A stretch of 64,000 bases of DNA from assembly GCF_038087665.1 (NCBI RefSeq), contig NZ_CP149925.1:2852870-2916869 (forward strand), written 5' to 3'. How positions within the stretch are numbered: the first letter of the stretch is position 1; every line of letters starts with the position of its first letter. A program made the translations under genes and the position numbers. Below are positions 14,735 through 20,602 of this stretch, in pieces. A model generated the notes under the pieces. That model had not been told where the DNA came from. It saw nothing but the letters and a program-made list of their open reading frames with translations, and searched no databases. Source of the stretch: Gallaecimonas sp. GXIMD4217. GTDB lineage: Bacteria > Pseudomonadota > Gammaproteobacteria > Enterobacterales > Gallaecimonadaceae.

Positions 14735-14833
14735 TTAGATGGCATTGATCAGCAGCCTGAAGGCCCCGGCCAGCAGCGCCAGGGCCGCCAGGCCGGCCAG
14801 GTAGAGGCCGAGGAACCAGAGCGCACGCCTCAT
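14735..14833 (-). CDS. DUF2474-type small subunit of cytochrome bd oxidase
   Basis: A 32-residue single-span membrane protein, MRRALWFLGLYLAGLAALAL followed by a second hydrophobic half ending LLINAI. Its ATG overlaps the cioB stop as ATGA, so it is translationally coupled. Basic N-terminus, an aromatic pair and one helix match the DUF2474 proteins found after cyanide-insensitive oxidase genes, analogous to CydX in E. coli bd-I. It probably stabilises the oxidase haem site. Confidence 0.85.
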   Translation of the reverse strand: MRRALWFLGLYLAGLAALALLAGAFRLLINAI

Positions 14834-15789
14834 CAGTAGCCCTCCTCGTAGTGCTCCACCTTGCCCTTGAAGATGCGGTAGCCCCAGAGCGTATAGCCGA
14901 GGATCAGCGGCAGGAAGATGGCGATGCCGGGCAGCATGAAGGCCAGGCTGGCCCTGGGCGCGGCGGCCTGGTAAATGTTCAGCCGACCCGGGATCAGCTC
15001 CGGGAACAACCCCACCACCAGGCCCAGGAAGCCGAGCACGAACAGCGCCATGGCCAGCCAGAAGGGGCGCTGCTCGGCGCCGGCCTGGAGACTGCGCCAC
15101 AGCCACAGGGCCACCGCCAGGGCCAGCAGCGGGATCGGCCACAGCCAGGGCAGGTAAGCCAGCCAGCGTTCGCGCACCCCGTCCACCAGGGCGAAGTTCC
15201 ACAGGCTGACCGCGGCCATGGCCAGCATCACCGCCACCAGCAGGGTGCCGGCCAGGGCCCTGGCCTTGGCCTGCAAAGCGCCGCTGGTCTTGAGGTTGAG
15301 GTAGGTGGCGCCCAGCAGGCCGTAGCCGGCCATGACCGCGAAGGCGGTGAAGACGCTGAAGGGGGTCAGCAGCCGCTCGGCGCCGCTTTCCACCAGGGTG
15401 CCCAGGATCAGGCCCTGGCAGAAGGCGGCCAGGGACGAGCCCAGGCCAAAGGCCAGATCCCACCAGCGCCTGGAGGTCTTGGCCTTGAAGCGGTATTCGA
15501 AGGCCACGCCGCGGAACACCAGCGCCAGCAACATCAGCATGATCGGCAGGTAGAGGGCCTCCAGCAGCCGGCCATAGGCGGCCGGGAAGGCGCCTAACAG
15601 GATCACCCCGCCGAACACCAACCAGGTCTCGTTGCCGTCCCAGACATGGGCCACGGCCCGCATCATCTTGCCCCTGTCCTGGTGGTCCTCGAACCAGGGG
15701 AACAGCATGCCGATGCCGAGATCGAAGCCGTCCAGCAGCACGTACATCAGGATGCCGAAGCCCAGCAGCAGGAAATACAGCAGTTCCAT
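14833..15789 (-). CDS. cioB: Cytochrome bd-type (cyanide-insensitive) quinol oxidase subunit II
   Basis: A 318-residue membrane protein with about eight or nine hydrophobic segments. It has the CydB hallmarks LDGFDLGIGMLFPW near residue 20, VWDGNETWLVFGG near residue 50, and FRGVAFEYRFK near residue 90. The ATG overlaps the cioA stop (ATGA) and the stop overlaps the next ATG (ATGA), giving three tightly coupled genes. A longer upstream open frame is antisense noise. With CioA it forms the haterodimer that reduces oxygen with electrons from quinol. Confidence 0.95.
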   Translation of the reverse strand: MELLYFLLLGFGILMYVLLDGFDLGIGMLFPWFEDHQDRGKMMRAVAHVWDGNETWLVFGGVILLGAFPAAYGRLLEALYLPIMLMLLALVFRGVAFEYRFKAKTSRRWWDLAFGLGSSLAAFCQGLILGTLVESGAERLLTPFSVFTAFAVMAGYGLLGATYLNLKTSGALQAKARALAGTLLVAVMLAMAAVSLWNFALVDGVRERWLAYLPWLWPIPLLALAVALWLWRSLQAGAEQRPFWLAMALFVLGFLGLVVGLFPELIPGRLNIYQAAAPRASLAFMLPGIAIFLPLILGYTLWGYRIFKGKVEHYEEGY

Positions 15790-17186
15790 CAGTGCCCCTC
15801 CTCTTTCAGTTGACGGACCCAGGCCAGGGCATAGCCGGGGGCCTGCATGCCCACCAGGTGTTTTTCCAGCTTGTCCATGCGCGGCGGCCCCTTGCGGATG
15901 AGCTTGCGAAAGAAATGCAGGTAGGCCAGGAACAAGACCCCGTACACCAACAGGAACAGCGCCAGGGACAGGGCCACCCGCTCCGGCGGCACCTGGCTGG
16001 CCACGTCCTTGGTGCGGATGAGGCCCTGCACCACCCAGGGCTGGCGGCCCACCTCCACCACGTACCAGCCGGCCAGGGTGGCGACGAAGCCGGCCGGGGT
16101 CAGCCAGGTCAGCAAGCGCAGCAGGCCTCTGTGGCGCCAGAAGCGGTCGCCCCGGCGCAGCCAGTTGCCCCAGAGGGCGGCCAGGATCATCAGCAGCCCC
16201 AGGCCCACCATGATGCGGAAGGAGAAGAACACCACAGGCACCGGCGGCCTGTCCTCGGGCGGCACCGACTTCAGGCCCTGCAGCTCGCCGTCGGCGCTGT
16301 GGGTGAGGATCCAGGCGGCGCCCTTGGGAATGGCGACCTCGAAGCGGTTGCGCTCGCCGGCCATGTCCGGCCAGGCGAACAGCAGCAGATCCGCCCCTTG
16401 CTCGCGGGCGGGCCAGATCCCCTCCATGGCGGCCACCTTGATGGGCTGGTGCTCCTTGACGTTGAGGCCGTGGAGGTCGCCCACCAGGGCCTGCAGCGGC
16501 GCCAGCACCAGGGCCGCAGCCAGGGCCATGGACAGCCCCTGCCGGGCGAAGGCCTGCTCCCGGCCCTGCAGCAGGTACCAGGCGCTGACCCCGGCGATGA
16601 CGAAGCTGGTGGTCAAAAATGACGCCAGCAGCATATGGGCCAGGCGGTAGGGAAAGCTGGGGTTGAAGATCACCTGCCACCAGCTGGTCACCACCAGCCG
16701 CCCTTCCTCCAAGGCATGGCCGGCCGGGGTCTGCATCCAGGAGTTGGCGGCCAGGATCCAGAAGGCGGAGATGACGGTGCCGACGGCCACTATGACGGTG
16801 GCGGCGAAATGCAGCCTTTCACCCACCCGCTGCCAGCCGAACAGCATGATGCCCAGGAAGCCCGCCTCCAGGAAGAAGGCGGTCAGCACCTCGTAGGTCA
16901 TCAGCGGCCCCACCACGGGCCCGGCCAGCTCGGAAAAGCGGGAGAAGTTGGTGCCGAACTCGTAGGACAGCACTATGCCGGACACCACCCCCATGCCGAA
17001 GGTGATGGCGAAGGGCTTGATCCAGAACTTGGCCAGTTGCAGGTAACGGGGGTTACGGGTCTTGAGCCAGAGCCCCTCCCAGATGGCGATGGCCAGGGCC
17101 AGGCCTATGGTCAGGGTCGGGAAGAGGATATGAAAGCTCAACGTCAGGCTCATCTGCAGCCTGGAGAGCAGGGCGACATCCCACAT
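15789..17186 (-). CDS. cioA: Cytochrome bd-type (cyanide-insensitive) quinol oxidase subunit I
   Basis: A 465-residue subunit I with haem ligands His19 (SFHILFP) and His184 (YRLAHMLLASF) and conserved Glu99 and Glu107 (MTYEVLTAFFLEAGF). GLNVKEHQPIKVAAMEG marks the start of the quinol loop, and VEVGRQPWVVQG is conserved. It is shorter than E. coli CydA (522) because the Q-loop is short, which places it with the CIO branch. Such enzymes resist cyanide and work at low oxygen. It starts one base after the stop of a 34-residue gene and is controlled from a region holding a sigma-54-type promoter. Confidence 0.95.
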   Translation of the reverse strand: MWDVALLSRLQMSLTLSFHILFPTLTIGLALAIAIWEGLWLKTRNPRYLQLAKFWIKPFAITFGMGVVSGIVLSYEFGTNFSRFSELAGPVVGPLMTYEVLTAFFLEAGFLGIMLFGWQRVGERLHFAATVIVAVGTVISAFWILAANSWMQTPAGHALEEGRLVVTSWWQVIFNPSFPYRLAHMLLASFLTTSFVIAGVSAWYLLQGREQAFARQGLSMALAAALVLAPLQALVGDLHGLNVKEHQPIKVAAMEGIWPAREQGADLLLFAWPDMAGERNRFEVAIPKGAAWILTHSADGELQGLKSVPPEDRPPVPVVFFSFRIMVGLGLLMILAALWGNWLRRGDRFWRHRGLLRLLTWLTPAGFVATLAGWYVVEVGRQPWVVQGLIRTKDVASQVPPERVALSLALFLLVYGVLFLAYLHFFRKLIRKGPPRMDKLEKHLVGMQAPGYALAWVRQLKEEGH

Positions 17187-17187
17187 C

Positions 17188-17292
17188 TCAGTTGCTCCTT
17201 GAACGCCAATAGCCCAGCAGGCTCGGGGCGGCCGCCAGGGCCAGGATCGACATCAGGATCAGGGCGTCGGCCATCAGGGTTGAAAACGACAT
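17188..17292 (-). CDS. 34-residue putative membrane peptide at the head of the cio operon
   Basis: The ATG at 17292 is preceded by AAGGAG at 6 bases, and its TGA lies one base from the cioA ATG. The peptide reads MSFSTLMADALILMSILALA, then AAPSLLGYWRSRSN: one hydrophobic helix with a basic C-terminus, predicted to be a single-span inner-membrane protein. I do not recognise a family. Strong Shine-Dalgarno sequence, GC-rich codon use and tight coupling to cioA argue that it is real. It could be an extra oxidase subunit or a leader peptide. Confidence 0.65.
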   Translation of the reverse strand: MSFSTLMADALILMSILALAAAPSLLGYWRSRSN

Positions 17293-17330
17293 GCGGTACT
17301 CCTTGCTACAGCGGTTTATGCCAACTTAAG

Positions 17331-17348
17331 TGGCAAGGGCCGTGCCAA
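17331..17348 (-). promoter_or_regulatory. Sigma-54 (RpoN) promoter of the cio operon
   Basis: On the minus strand the sequence TTGGCACGGCCCTTGCCA matches the RpoN consensus TTGGCACG-N4-TTGCW at all core bases except the last. GG and GC are 10 bases apart, as required for the -24/-12 elements. Transcription would start near 17321, about 29 bases before the ATG of the 34-residue gene. The divergent gene pair encodes a sigma-54 activator, which fits. Confidence 0.75.
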
Positions 17349-17360
17349 CAGCGCCAGGCC

Positions 17361-17374
17361 TTGATTTGCGTCAA
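17361..17374. promoter_or_regulatory. FNR/ANR-like binding site
   Basis: TTGATTTGCGTCAA matches TTGAT-N4-ATCAA at nine of ten positions. It lies centred about 46 bases upstream of the predicted cio transcription start. CIO operons in pseudomonads are known to be controlled by ANR, so an oxygen-responsive role is plausible. FNR itself is not encoded in the window. Confidence 0.5.
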
Positions 17375-17400: not shown

Positions 17401-17417
17401 TGTCAACGCTGTTGACA
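17401..17417. promoter_or_regulatory. 17-bp perfect inverted repeat, candidate activator site
   Basis: TGTCAACGCTGTTGACA has two 7-base arms around a 3-base centre. It is centred near -88 of the predicted sigma-54 start, where enhancer-binding proteins usually bind. It is also 25 bases upstream of the sensor kinase ATG; its right arm contains TTGACA, a possible -35 box for the kinase gene. Autoregulation and control of cio from one site is possible. Confidence 0.5.
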
Positions 17418-17441: not shown

Positions 17442-19274
17442 ATGTTTACAAATCATAGCCTGGTGCTGGCCTTCGAGCTGGCCATGGCCGTCACCAGCCT
17501 CAGCGCCACGGGCGCCGGCCTCTGGCTGCTCAGCCGCAGCGGTGGCCAGGGCGAGCTCAAGGCCCTGGCCGGCTTCGCCCTGGCCATGGCCGCCTGGTGC
17601 CTGGGCCACCTGCTCGGCCCCTTCTGGCCGGCCCCGGCCCTGGTGCTGCTGCTGGCCAACCCGCTGATGCCCACCGCTTTCCTGGATTTCGCCTGCCGCT
17701 TCGTGGCCACGGCCGAGCCTCCGCCCTGGCTGGCCTGGCTGCAAAGGCGCATGGCCTGGTGCTACGGCGCCGCCGGCTTGGCCATACTGGTCAGCCTGGC
17801 CGATGGCGCCACACTGGCGCCCTGGCCGCCCTTCGAGCACTTTATTCACCTTAACGCCCTGGGCTGGCTCAACCTGGCCTGGACCATGGCGGTGGGTGTG
17901 CTGGCGCACCTGGTGCTGCTGTGGGGCCTGTGGCGGCACAGCGGCAACAGGCGCCGCTCCATCATCGCCATGTTCGGGGTCGGCGCCTGGGGCCTGCTGC
18001 TGGCCTCCAGCTTTATCTTTCCCTCCCTGGGTATCCGGGCCTTCCCCTGGTCCATGCTGCTGCTGCCCAGCTATGTGCTGCTGCTGGTGTTTGCGGTGAT
18101 GCGCTACCGGCTGCTGGAGGTGAACCGCTGGGCCATGAAGGGGGTGCAGTGGCTGGTGATGCTGCTGGCCCTGGGGCTGCTGATCGCCGCTCTGGGCCCC
18201 CTGGCCGGCCTGCTGGGCCTGGGCGGCCTGGCCCAGGTACCGGCCTGGCAGCTGCTGCTCTACGGCCTGCTGATCCTTGGCGCCGGCGCCTGGCTCTGGC
18301 CCAGGATCAGCACCCTGGCCAGGCGGCTGATCTTCCCCGGTGGCGAACTCCAGGAGGAACGGCTCAGGGACTGGCAGCGCCAGCTGGCCCGGGCCGCCGG
18401 CTGGGACGAGCTGATGGCCAGGGCCGGCCGGTTGCTGGGCGCCCAGCTGGGCCACCAGGTGCAGGTGGGCCTCACGGACCAGGGCGGCGACACCCCGCAA
18501 CTGCTGTGCCGGCAGCTGGACGGCCAGTGGCAGGTGGATCTGCAGCACTGGCAGGACAGCACCCCGGGCCAGCGCCTGGCCGCCGAGGTGTTCGCCTCCC
18601 TGCTGGCCTCGGCCTGCACCAACCTGGCCCAGAGCCTGGCCCTGGCCGAGCAGGAGAAGCAGCGCCTGGCCCAGCAGCATCTGGTGGAGCTGGGCGCATT
18701 GTCGGCGGCCATGGCCCATGAGTTGCGCAACCCCCTCAACATCATTGCCATGGCCGCCGCCGGCTGCGACCAGACCGTCCGCGGCCATATCCAGCAGCAG
18801 ATCCAGCGCGCCGACCTGCTGATCAAGGACATGCTGGTCTACGGCGGCGAGCTCAACCTGGCTGTCCAGCCGCTCAGGCTGGCCGGCCTGATCCGCGGCC
18901 TGGCGTTGGACGGCGTCACCCTGGCGGTGCCGGACGGGCTCGAACTTCGGGCCGATCCCTTCCGGGTCACCCAGGTGCTGGACAACCTGCTGAGCAACGC
19001 CCGCGCCTTCGCCAGGGAACAGATCCTGCTGGAGGCGGGCCGGGACGATGCTGCCACCTGGATCCGGGTCCACAACGACGGCCCGGCGGTGGCGGCGGCG
19101 ATCCGCGACCGGCTGTTCCAGCCCTTCGTCAGCAAGAGGCCAGGCGGCTCCGGCCTGGGCCTGGCCATAGTGGGCCGCATCATGGCCGGCCACGGCGGCA
19201 GCGCACGGCTGCGCACCGATCTGGGCTGGCCGGTCAGTTTCGAGATCCGCTTTCCCCTGGAGGTACATTCATGA
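17442..19274 (+). CDS. Membrane sensor histidine kinase
   Basis: A 610-residue kinase. The first roughly 290 residues are mostly hydrophobic, with about nine segments by eye, and no large periplasmic domain. A GAF-like region follows at about 300-410. The transmitter has the H-box AMAHELRNPLN (about residue 425), the N-box VLDNLLSNARAFA, the G1 box VHNDGP and the G2 box GGSGLGLAIVGRI. All catalytic motifs are present. Its stop overlaps the regulator ATG (ATGA). It is divergent from the cio operon across a 149-base control region. The multi-span input domain suggests it senses something in or at the membrane, perhaps quinone or respiratory state; that is inference. Confidence 0.9.
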   Translation: MFTNHSLVLAFELAMAVTSLSATGAGLWLLSRSGGQGELKALAGFALAMAAWCLGHLLGPFWPAPALVLLLANPLMPTAFLDFACRFVATAEPPPWLAWLQRRMAWCYGAAGLAILVSLADGATLAPWPPFEHFIHLNALGWLNLAWTMAVGVLAHLVLLWGLWRHSGNRRRSIIAMFGVGAWGLLLASSFIFPSLGIRAFPWSMLLLPSYVLLLVFAVMRYRLLEVNRWAMKGVQWLVMLLALGLLIAALGPLAGLLGLGGLAQVPAWQLLLYGLLILGAGAWLWPRISTLARRLIFPGGELQEERLRDWQRQLARAAGWDELMARAGRLLGAQLGHQVQVGLTDQGGDTPQLLCRQLDGQWQVDLQHWQDSTPGQRLAAEVFASLLASACTNLAQSLALAEQEKQRLAQQHLVELGALSAAMAHELRNPLNIIAMAAAGCDQTVRGHIQQQIQRADLLIKDMLVYGGELNLAVQPLRLAGLIRGLALDGVTLAVPDGLELRADPFRVTQVLDNLLSNARAFAREQILLEAGRDDAATWIRVHNDGPAVAAAIRDRLFQPFVSKRPGGSGLGLAIVGRIMAGHGGSARLRTDLGWPVSFEIRFPLEVHS

Positions 19275-20602
19275 GCCAACGCATCCTGCTGGTGGACGAC
19301 GAGAACGCCTTCTGCGAGCTGTGTGGCCAATGGCTGCAGAAGGACGGCTACGAGGTGGCCACGGCCGGGGATCTGGACCAGGCCCTGGCCCGGCTGGAGG
19401 ACTTCGATGCCGATCTGGTGCTGCTGGATCTGGCGCTGCCGCCGGCCTTTTCGCCCCACCAGACCCTGGCCGCCCTGCCCCGTTTCGGCGACAGGCCTGT
19501 GGTGATCCTGTCCGGCCACGGCGAGCGCAAGCTGGCCCTGGAGGCCATCAAGCTGGGGGCCTGGGACTTCCTGTCCAAGCCGGTGGATCCGGACATGCTG
19601 GCGGTGGTGCTCAGGCGCGCCCTGGTCAAGCGCCAGCTGTCCAGGGAGCTGGCCAGGCTGCGTCAGGATGAGGGCGATCTGCACGAGCTGGTCGGCCGCT
19701 CGCCGGCCATGGAGACCCTCAAGGCCCTGGTGCGCCGCATCGCCCCCACGGAAGTGCCGGTGCTGATCAGCGGTCCCTCGGGCACCGGCAAGGAGATGGT
19801 CAGCCGGGCCCTGCACCGGCTGTCGCGCCGAGCCCAGGGACCTTTCGTGTCGGTGCACTGCGGCGCCATCCCGGCTGAGCTGCTGGAGAGCGAGCTGTTC
19901 GGCCACAAGAAGGGCGCCTTCACCGGCGCCGACCGGGACAGGCCCGGGCTGCTGGCCATGGCCGACGGCGGCACCCTGTTTCTGGACGAGATAGGCGACA
20001 TGCCCCTGGGCATGCAGGTCAAGCTGCTGAGGGTGCTGCAGGAAGGCACCTTCTACCCGGTGGGCGGCCGCGAGCAGGTCCGCATCGACGTGCGGCTGAT
20101 CTCGGCCACCAATGCCGAGCTGCCGGCCAGGGTCCGGGACGGCAGCTTCCGGGAGGATCTCTACTACCGCATCAAGGGCATCAGCCTGGATACCCCGGCC
20201 CTGGACAGGCGCCGGGAGGATCTGCCGCTGCTGTGCGGGCGGCTGCTGGACGACTGGCGCCAGCGCCACGGCCGGGCCCTGCGGCTGTCCCCGGAGGCCA
20301 GGCAGTGGTTCCTGGGCCGCAGCTGGCCCGGCAATGTGCGGGAGCTGAAGAATACCCTGGAGAGCGTGGCCGCCATCGCCCAGGGCGATCAGATCACCCT
20401 GGCCGACATCCGACTGCTGCACCCGGACGAGGCCGAGGCGCCTGCCGGCCAGACCCTGGATGAACAGGTACGGACCCTGGAGATCCGCCTTATCGGCCAG
20501 GCCCTGGCCGAGAGCGGCGGCAACCGCAGCCAGGCCGCCCGCCAGCTGGGCCTGAGCCGGCAGGGACTGCTGAAGAAGATGGAGCGCTACGGCCTGGAAT
20601 GA
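19271..20602 (+). CDS. Sigma-54-dependent response regulator (NtrC family)
   Basis: A 443-residue three-domain regulator. The receiver (1-120) has DD at 9-10, the phosphoacceptor Asp53 and SKP near 103. The AAA+ domain has Walker A GPSGTGKE, the sigma-54 contact loop GAFTGA and Walker B TLFLDEIGD. The C-terminal Fis-type helix-turn-helix is GGNRSQAARQLGLSRQGLLKKM. It is coupled to the kinase by an ATGA overlap. The closest sigma-54-type promoter in the window is that of the divergent cio operon, making cio the leading candidate target. The architecture resembles PrsR-type regulators, but no exopolysaccharide or PEP-CTERM genes are nearby. Confidence 0.93.
   Translation: MSQRILLVDDENAFCELCGQWLQKDGYEVATAGDLDQALARLEDFDADLVLLDLALPPAFSPHQTLAALPRFGDRPVVILSGHGERKLALEAIKLGAWDFLSKPVDPDMLAVVLRRALVKRQLSRELARLRQDEGDLHELVGRSPAMETLKALVRRIAPTEVPVLISGPSGTGKEMVSRALHRLSRRAQGPFVSVHCGAIPAELLESELFGHKKGAFTGADRDRPGLLAMADGGTLFLDEIGDMPLGMQVKLLRVLQEGTFYPVGGREQVRIDVRLISATNAELPARVRDGSFREDLYYRIKGISLDTPALDRRREDLPLLCGRLLDDWRQRHGRALRLSPEARQWFLGRSWPGNVRELKNTLESVAAIAQGDQITLADIRLLHPDEAEAPAGQTLDEQVRTLEIRLIGQALAESGGNRSQAARQLGLSRQGLLKKMERYGLE

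Follow-up and report, generated by a model that had tools for sequence, protein, structure and literature searches.

A conserved single-helix membrane peptide encoded before cioA occurs together with a divergently encoded sensor kinase

Small membrane proteins of bd-type oxidases and of sensor kinases

Oxidases of the bd and cyanide-insensitive types have repeatedly revealed unannotated one-helix proteins, which have so far been read as subunits. CydS of Geobacillus is one single-helix protein bound to a bd oxidase. In E. coli bd-I, CydX and YnhF (named CydY in the structure paper of 2019 and CydH by others) are likewise bound single-helix proteins. Allen and colleagues (2014) sought small proteins downstream of cydB and named CydY and CydZ (DUF2474); they also noted a further hydrophobic protein, left unnamed, that is encoded ahead of long-Q-loop cydAB operons without cydX. 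The DUF2474 proteins of cyanide-insensitive oxidases were described by Degli Esposti and colleagues. CioY of Campylobacter jejuni, the CydY of Allen and colleagues (2014), binds CioA by co-immunoprecipitation. CydP precedes the bd-I cydA in Burkholderia, as in cydPABX of Burkholderia cenocepacia, and the paper that named it reports that CydP was not found outside Burkholderiales. The first gene of the Chromobacterium cio operon encodes a MarR-family repressor. A small membrane protein of a different kind is MgrB, which inhibits PhoQ, the kinase of its own regulon.

The window analyzed here, 64,000 nucleotides of the Gallaecimonas sp. GXIMD4217 genome, contains a cio operon headed by a gene for a 34-residue peptide that can be compared with each of these systems. 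CydP (NCBIfam NF045611), as described, is also a small membrane protein encoded upstream of the gene for bd-oxidase subunit I, but it belongs to bd-I operons. None of 70 members of the peptide family (70 of the 79 distinct peptides) matched NF045611, which has a cut-off of 29.6 bits, even at E up to 1, and hhalign gave a probability of 0.4 percent for the family against four CydP-like ORFs. In the window's own genus, a frame of 61–63 amino acids of the CydP kind precedes a bd-I type cydA at four loci (L013, L014, L016 and L017). The one at L017 matches NF045611 at 38.9 bits and the other three align with it, so the range of CydP is wider than Burkholderiales.

The DUF2474 proteins (CydZ or CioZ, PF10617) are, by their descriptions, one-helix proteins of cio operons like the peptide, but they are encoded after cioB and their predicted orientation is opposite: the DUF2474-like proteins at these loci have on average 3.46 Lys plus Arg before the helix and 1.18 after it, with the larger number before it in 66 of 74. 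The same 70 of 79 distinct peptides gave no match to PF10617 at E up to 1. CioY is described as a 34-residue helix of a cioAB operon, like the peptide, and it is encoded downstream of the oxidase genes. MgrB has 47 residues and is likened to the peptide by its mode of action; as described, it is a small membrane protein in the regulon of the kinase on which it acts, which is the role proposed below for the peptide, with a partner that is deduced from distribution and context. Among the papers listed by searches of the open literature, with most subscription papers outside their scope, none was recognized as linking a kinase to a small protein encoded ahead of cioA.

The peptide gene and its conservation

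The operon runs in the order peptide, cioA, cioB, DUF2474-like ORF (Table 1). An earlier note on this DNA, made from the sequence alone, had placed a small protein on each side of the oxidase genes, and both are present. The DUF2474-like ORF scores 16.1 bits with Pfam against a curated cut-off of 26.6, and ORFs at its position in relatives share a similar WF-Y-G core. The cioA gene in the window is the only cydA-type gene of its genome at E 1e-60; the four genus relatives have two to four.

Table 1. Features of the cio operon and of the divergent regulatory genes (window positions)
Feature	Position	Strand	Evidence or remark
Conserved 34-residue single-helix membrane peptide gene, unnamed family	17188..17292	-	sequence, conservation, predicted structure
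Shine-Dalgarno of peptide gene, AAGGAG	17299..17304	-	6 nt spacer to ATG
Shine-Dalgarno of cioA, AAGGAG, within final codons of peptide gene	17195..17200	-	read from sequence
cioA, cytochrome bd subunit I, cyanide-insensitive type	15789..17186	-	Pfam Cyt_bd_oxida_I, 1.1e-169
cioB, cytochrome bd subunit II	14833..15789	-	Pfam and relatives
DUF2474-like (CydZ/CioZ-like) single-helix protein, 32 residues	14735..14833	-	sub-threshold Pfam; relatives
Sigma-54-like promoter upstream of peptide gene, TGGCAC-N5-TTGC	17333..17347	-	only exact match in window, 0.28 expected
Perfect inverted repeat TGTCAACGCTGTTGACA, divergent promoter region	17401..17417	.	0.04 expected when as many as 2 mismatches are allowed
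Membrane sensor histidine kinase, divergent to operon, co-occurs with peptide	17442..19274	+	domains, searches
NtrC-type response regulator: receiver, sigma-54 activator (GAFTGA) and HTH_8 domains	19271..20602	+	domains, alignment

The peptide ORF consists of an ATG start, 34 codons in all and a TGA stop, and its translation is MSFSTLMADALILMSILALAAAPSLLGYWRSRSN. A single base (17187) separates the TGA (17188–17190) from the ATG of cioA (17184–17186). The Shine-Dalgarno of the peptide gene is also AAGGAG in three of the genus relatives (G001, G003 and G004) and AAGGTG in the fourth (G002). Because the Shine-Dalgarno of cioA sits in the final codons of the peptide gene, the conservation of C-terminal Arg codons is partly explained by it. 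AlphaFold2 predicts a single helix over residues 3–33, with a mean pLDDT of 87.6. The strong Shine-Dalgarno, the one hydrophobic helix and the stop one base from cioA that had been pointed out in the earlier note therefore agree with both the sequence and the structure prediction. Lys and Arg average 0.01 before the helix and 3.0 after it, and the C-terminal side has more in 78 of 79 peptides; this excess predicts an N-out, C-in orientation. By the positive-inside rule, the peptide would be a small inner-membrane protein with its N-terminus outside and its C-terminus inside.

The peptide had been called unrecognized, and the family searches agree. The window peptide has no match in Pfam or NCBIfam. 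Among the 70 members scanned against the same collections there were only scattered weak matches, the best at E 0.022, and no family was matched by more than 7 of the 70. These members make up alignment A3, in which two starts were trimmed; five of the 79 distinct peptides were excluded from it because they carry an insertion of 4 residues, and four others because they are near-copies. Against solved structures the family profile gave one irrelevant match (E 0.24), and no bd-oxidase chain was listed among PDB matches at E up to 10, a list from which filters can drop weak matches.

The peptide ORF is a real protein-coding gene of a conserved family. A counterpart precedes cioA in all four other genomes of the genus that were compared and at 79 of 80 loci from named relatives, which are the yield of scanning named genomes with a CioA alignment; with the window this makes 84 of 85 loci of one CioA clade. 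The genera in the titles of these genomes include Zobellella, Oceanisphaera, Oceanimonas, Rheinheimera and Marinomonas, along with Marinobacterium, Oceanospirillum, Oceanobacter, Nitrincola and Mangrovitalea. In the four genus relatives the best-matching CioA is 69–75% identical to that of the window, and each has an uninterrupted frame of 30 residues at the corresponding position. The peptides of the genus are only 37–50% identical pairwise, and when the window peptide was used as a query against the genus, with E up to 1 allowed, one of the four orthologs was recovered (G001, E 0.014); two weak matches in G002 fell elsewhere. Since plain similarity is this weak, orthology of the peptides rests on position and shared columns.

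A fixed rule was applied to the regions upstream of cioA: an ORF starting with ATG no more than 335 nt before cioA, 28–42 amino acids long and with a Kyte-Doolittle 17-mer above 1.6. It scored 84 of the 85 clade loci and 3 of 60 loci with a more distant CioA, and the family motif was found at none of those 60 (one of which had only 230 nt upstream). Two columns are invariant in all 79 distinct peptides, one acidic (Glu in 66, Asp in 13) and one Pro, and a further column is Ala in 71 of the 79.

The earlier note had proposed that a translated gene heads the operon and had suggested synonymous-site conservation in relatives as the check. In 24 non-overlapping, independent pairs, pN/pS was 0.21 in the peptide frame (bootstrap 0.16–0.25), against 0.98 and 2.79 for the two out-of-frame readings, and substitutions at codon positions 1, 2 and 3 numbered 82, 34 and 186 (186 of 302 at the third position). 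Frameshifts or stops in close relatives, which the note had named as evidence against a gene, are absent from all four genus genomes, and stops or loss of the peptide are seen only farther off, at four Oceanisphaera-type loci. The distance from the peptide stop to cioA varies among loci from an 11-nt overlap up to 201 nt, so the ORF is a gene and more than a mere coupling device.

Distribution across the CioA clade and joint loss with the kinase

The peptide family is restricted to one CioA clade in this sample. In a tree of 147 CioA proteins, made with a quick search and with several long branches outside the clade, the family is present in 85 of the 87 rows of that clade (SH-aLRT 100) and in none of the 60 rows outside it; the tree omits 14 of the 16 order loci L018–L033, which likely come from species already represented by named loci. 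Annotated plasmid-borne cioA records do not belong to the peptide-bearing clade, all 301 matches being below 60% identity. In three of these plasmid records (Pseudomonas aeruginosa, Acinetobacter and Mycetohabitans) no small gene is annotated before cioA on the same strand in the PLSDB gene tables, which are incomplete, and one of the three has a 102-base gene on the strand opposite cioA. Under a looser rule (three start codons, 22–60 amino acids, hydropathy above 1.3), one of these records has no such frame and two have frames judged by eye to be unrelated.

Within the clade, the peptide occurs with the divergent sensor kinase. Apart from the window, 83 of 84 clade loci have the kinase divergently upstream. 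The exception, Candidatus Oceanisphaera merdipullorum (L052), has no kinase and is the only one of the 84 with a broken peptide gene. The order was sampled with 394 genomes; a related cioA was found in 138 of them (E 1e-110) and the kinase in 20 (E 1e-45). These 20 are 20 of the 21 genomes with a clade-type cioA, and the one remaining (G379) has a broken peptide gene.

Family- and genus-wide searches supplied further loci, to give 176 loci of which 114 distinct ones were counted. By an automatic rule, 109 of these had both kinase and peptide, one the kinase without the peptide, two the peptide without the kinase, and two neither. Three rows were reassigned by eye: at L213, scored as lacking the peptide, a family peptide is present in a frame that exceeds the 42-residue limit, and the two supposed peptides without a kinase were judged to be the tail end of a symporter-like frame that lies upstream. 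After this correction, the peptide is present at 110 of the 110 distinct loci with the kinase and at none of the four without it. A long frame lies upstream of cioA at L027 and L052, two of the kinase-less loci, where both kinase and regulator are missing; it resembles a sodium-dependent symporter.

All four kinase-less loci retain cioA, cioB and the DUF2474-like ORF. Three of them have a remnant of the peptide gene with an early in-frame stop, and the fourth (L187) has at most a short resembling stretch. A search at E 1e-20, in which two controls matched, found no kinase in the four genomes, one of which (G780) is a draft that is 93% complete. Peptide and kinase are thus both gone from a lineage in which the oxidase genes persist. 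The four loci group together as a clade (support 81/94), so the loss of peptide and kinase is best read as a single joint event. Such a one-off loss could also reflect collateral decay, in which the regulator went and the promoter and first gene became useless, with no direct partnership between peptide and kinase.

Candidate roles of the peptide and control of the operon

The preferred reading, to which we give a probability of roughly 0.45, is that the peptide is the first product of a kinase-controlled, probably sigma-54-dependent operon and acts in the membrane on the kinase as MgrB acts on PhoQ. Sigma-54 and the divergently encoded response regulator would drive the promoter of the peptide-cioA-cioB-DUF2474 operon, so that the peptide would be made in step with the oxidase. 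The peptide would then bind the membrane domain of the kinase through its invariant acidic residue and Pro, and the bound peptide would set or shut off the output of the kinase in a feedback loop of the MgrB-PhoQ kind. A more specific version, in which the peptide physically couples the terminal oxidase to its own sensor kinase and represents a new family of about 30–40 residues, is less likely. If true, the kinase would read the amount or activity of the oxidase and tune the operon, and the peptide would be in effect a respiratory MgrB.

The strongest rival, close behind action on the kinase, is that the peptide is an accessory subunit of the CioAB oxidase of this clade, packed on CioA and serving haem insertion, stability or gating, with the kinase as no more than a regulator of the operon. 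This is a serious possibility, though held at somewhat less than even odds. The peptide is encoded in the same operon, before cioA at 84 of 85 loci, has a single helix, and accompanies 85 of the 87 CioA rows that make up its clade. There are described precedents in CydP of Burkholderia, in CioY on CioA in Campylobacter, and in CydX and CydY/YnhF of E. coli bd-I, and those small membrane proteins of bd operons whose role has been tested are described as subunits. On the other side, the peptide was lost, jointly with the kinase, from a lineage where cioA, cioB and the DUF2474-like gene remain; the operon already has a gene for a canonical small subunit downstream of cioB; and the peptide is missing from all 60 CioA rows outside the clade. 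The suggestion in the earlier note that the peptide may be a new accessory subunit stands as far as the peptide gene adjoins cioA, but four loci of one lineage do without it while keeping the oxidase genes and the DUF2474-like ORF. A subunit role is therefore possible but not favored by the distribution, which points to the regulator instead of the oxidase.

Evolutionary distances give a mixed picture. They were compared at 72 of the 84 loci, those with a full-length kinase frame, an intact cioB and a DUF2474-like ORF. Rank correlations with peptide distances were 0.64 for the kinase membrane region, 0.59 for CioB, 0.53 for the kinase domain and 0.46 for CioA. The DUF2474-like protein served as a control at the same 72 loci, with correlations of 0.65 for CioB, 0.59 for CioA, 0.58 for the kinase membrane region and 0.50 for the kinase domain. 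When the taxa were halved 300 times, the peptide correlation with the kinase exceeded that with CioA by 0.19 (0.08 to 0.28) and that with CioB by 0.06 (−0.03 to 0.13); the corresponding differences for the control were −0.01 and −0.07. Within Marinomonas the peptide fits the kinase best (0.83, against 0.77 for CioB), while CioB fits better within Rheinheimera (0.87, against 0.79 for the kinase) and leads with Rheinheimera left out (0.77 against 0.72), as a subunit might. The distances thus lean towards the kinase over CioA but fail to separate the kinase from CioB.

It is improbable that the ORF is a leader or uORF whose translation, and not its product, matters, by delivering ribosomes to cioA or by attenuation. 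The stop one base before the ATG of cioA in the window and the cioA Shine-Dalgarno inside the ORF are what a leader would have, but the amino acids are under selection (pN/pS 0.21) with two invariant residues, and a stop-to-cioA distance that runs from overlap to 201 nt means that the coupling is not conserved. Short ORFs are common, and 3 of 60 control upstream regions hold a hydrophobic ORF of such size, but a chance open frame has next to no probability here and is ruled out by conservation, given 84 of 85 clade loci, the same pN/pS and a motif seen in none of the 60 controls.

If the peptide does act on the kinase, it would connect a terminal oxidase, at the molecular level, to its controlling kinase, with two residues already defined, and would show that small membrane proteins may be mistaken for subunits when they are judged by genome context alone. 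For its operon, the promoter region suggests that transcription is probably driven by sigma-54 and the divergently encoded response regulator. The element at 17333–17347 resembles the sigma-54 consensus. A looser sigma-54-like element lies 25–110 nt before the peptide ATG at 54 of 84 loci, compared to 0.85 in shuffles, and was found at none of the 22 Rheinheimera-titled loci. Of the 79 regulators of relatives that could be aligned, 73 extend as far as the GAFTGA position; 71 of them have GAFTGA, one has GTFTGA and one is cut off after GA. Rheinheimera-titled loci such as L084, L089 and L104 keep GAFTGA in the regulator despite having no sigma-54-like element before the peptide gene.

The perfect inverted repeat in the divergent promoter region is a possible activator site. 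Its form GTCAA-N5-TTGAC occurs at 8 of 84 loci, including all five of the genus, and with so few loci the palindrome was rejected as a general feature of the operon. Between the kinase and peptide genes lies TTGATTTGCGTCAA (17361–17374), which presumably resembles an FNR/Anr box; as judged from this stretch of sequence, oxygen control of the operon is plausible.
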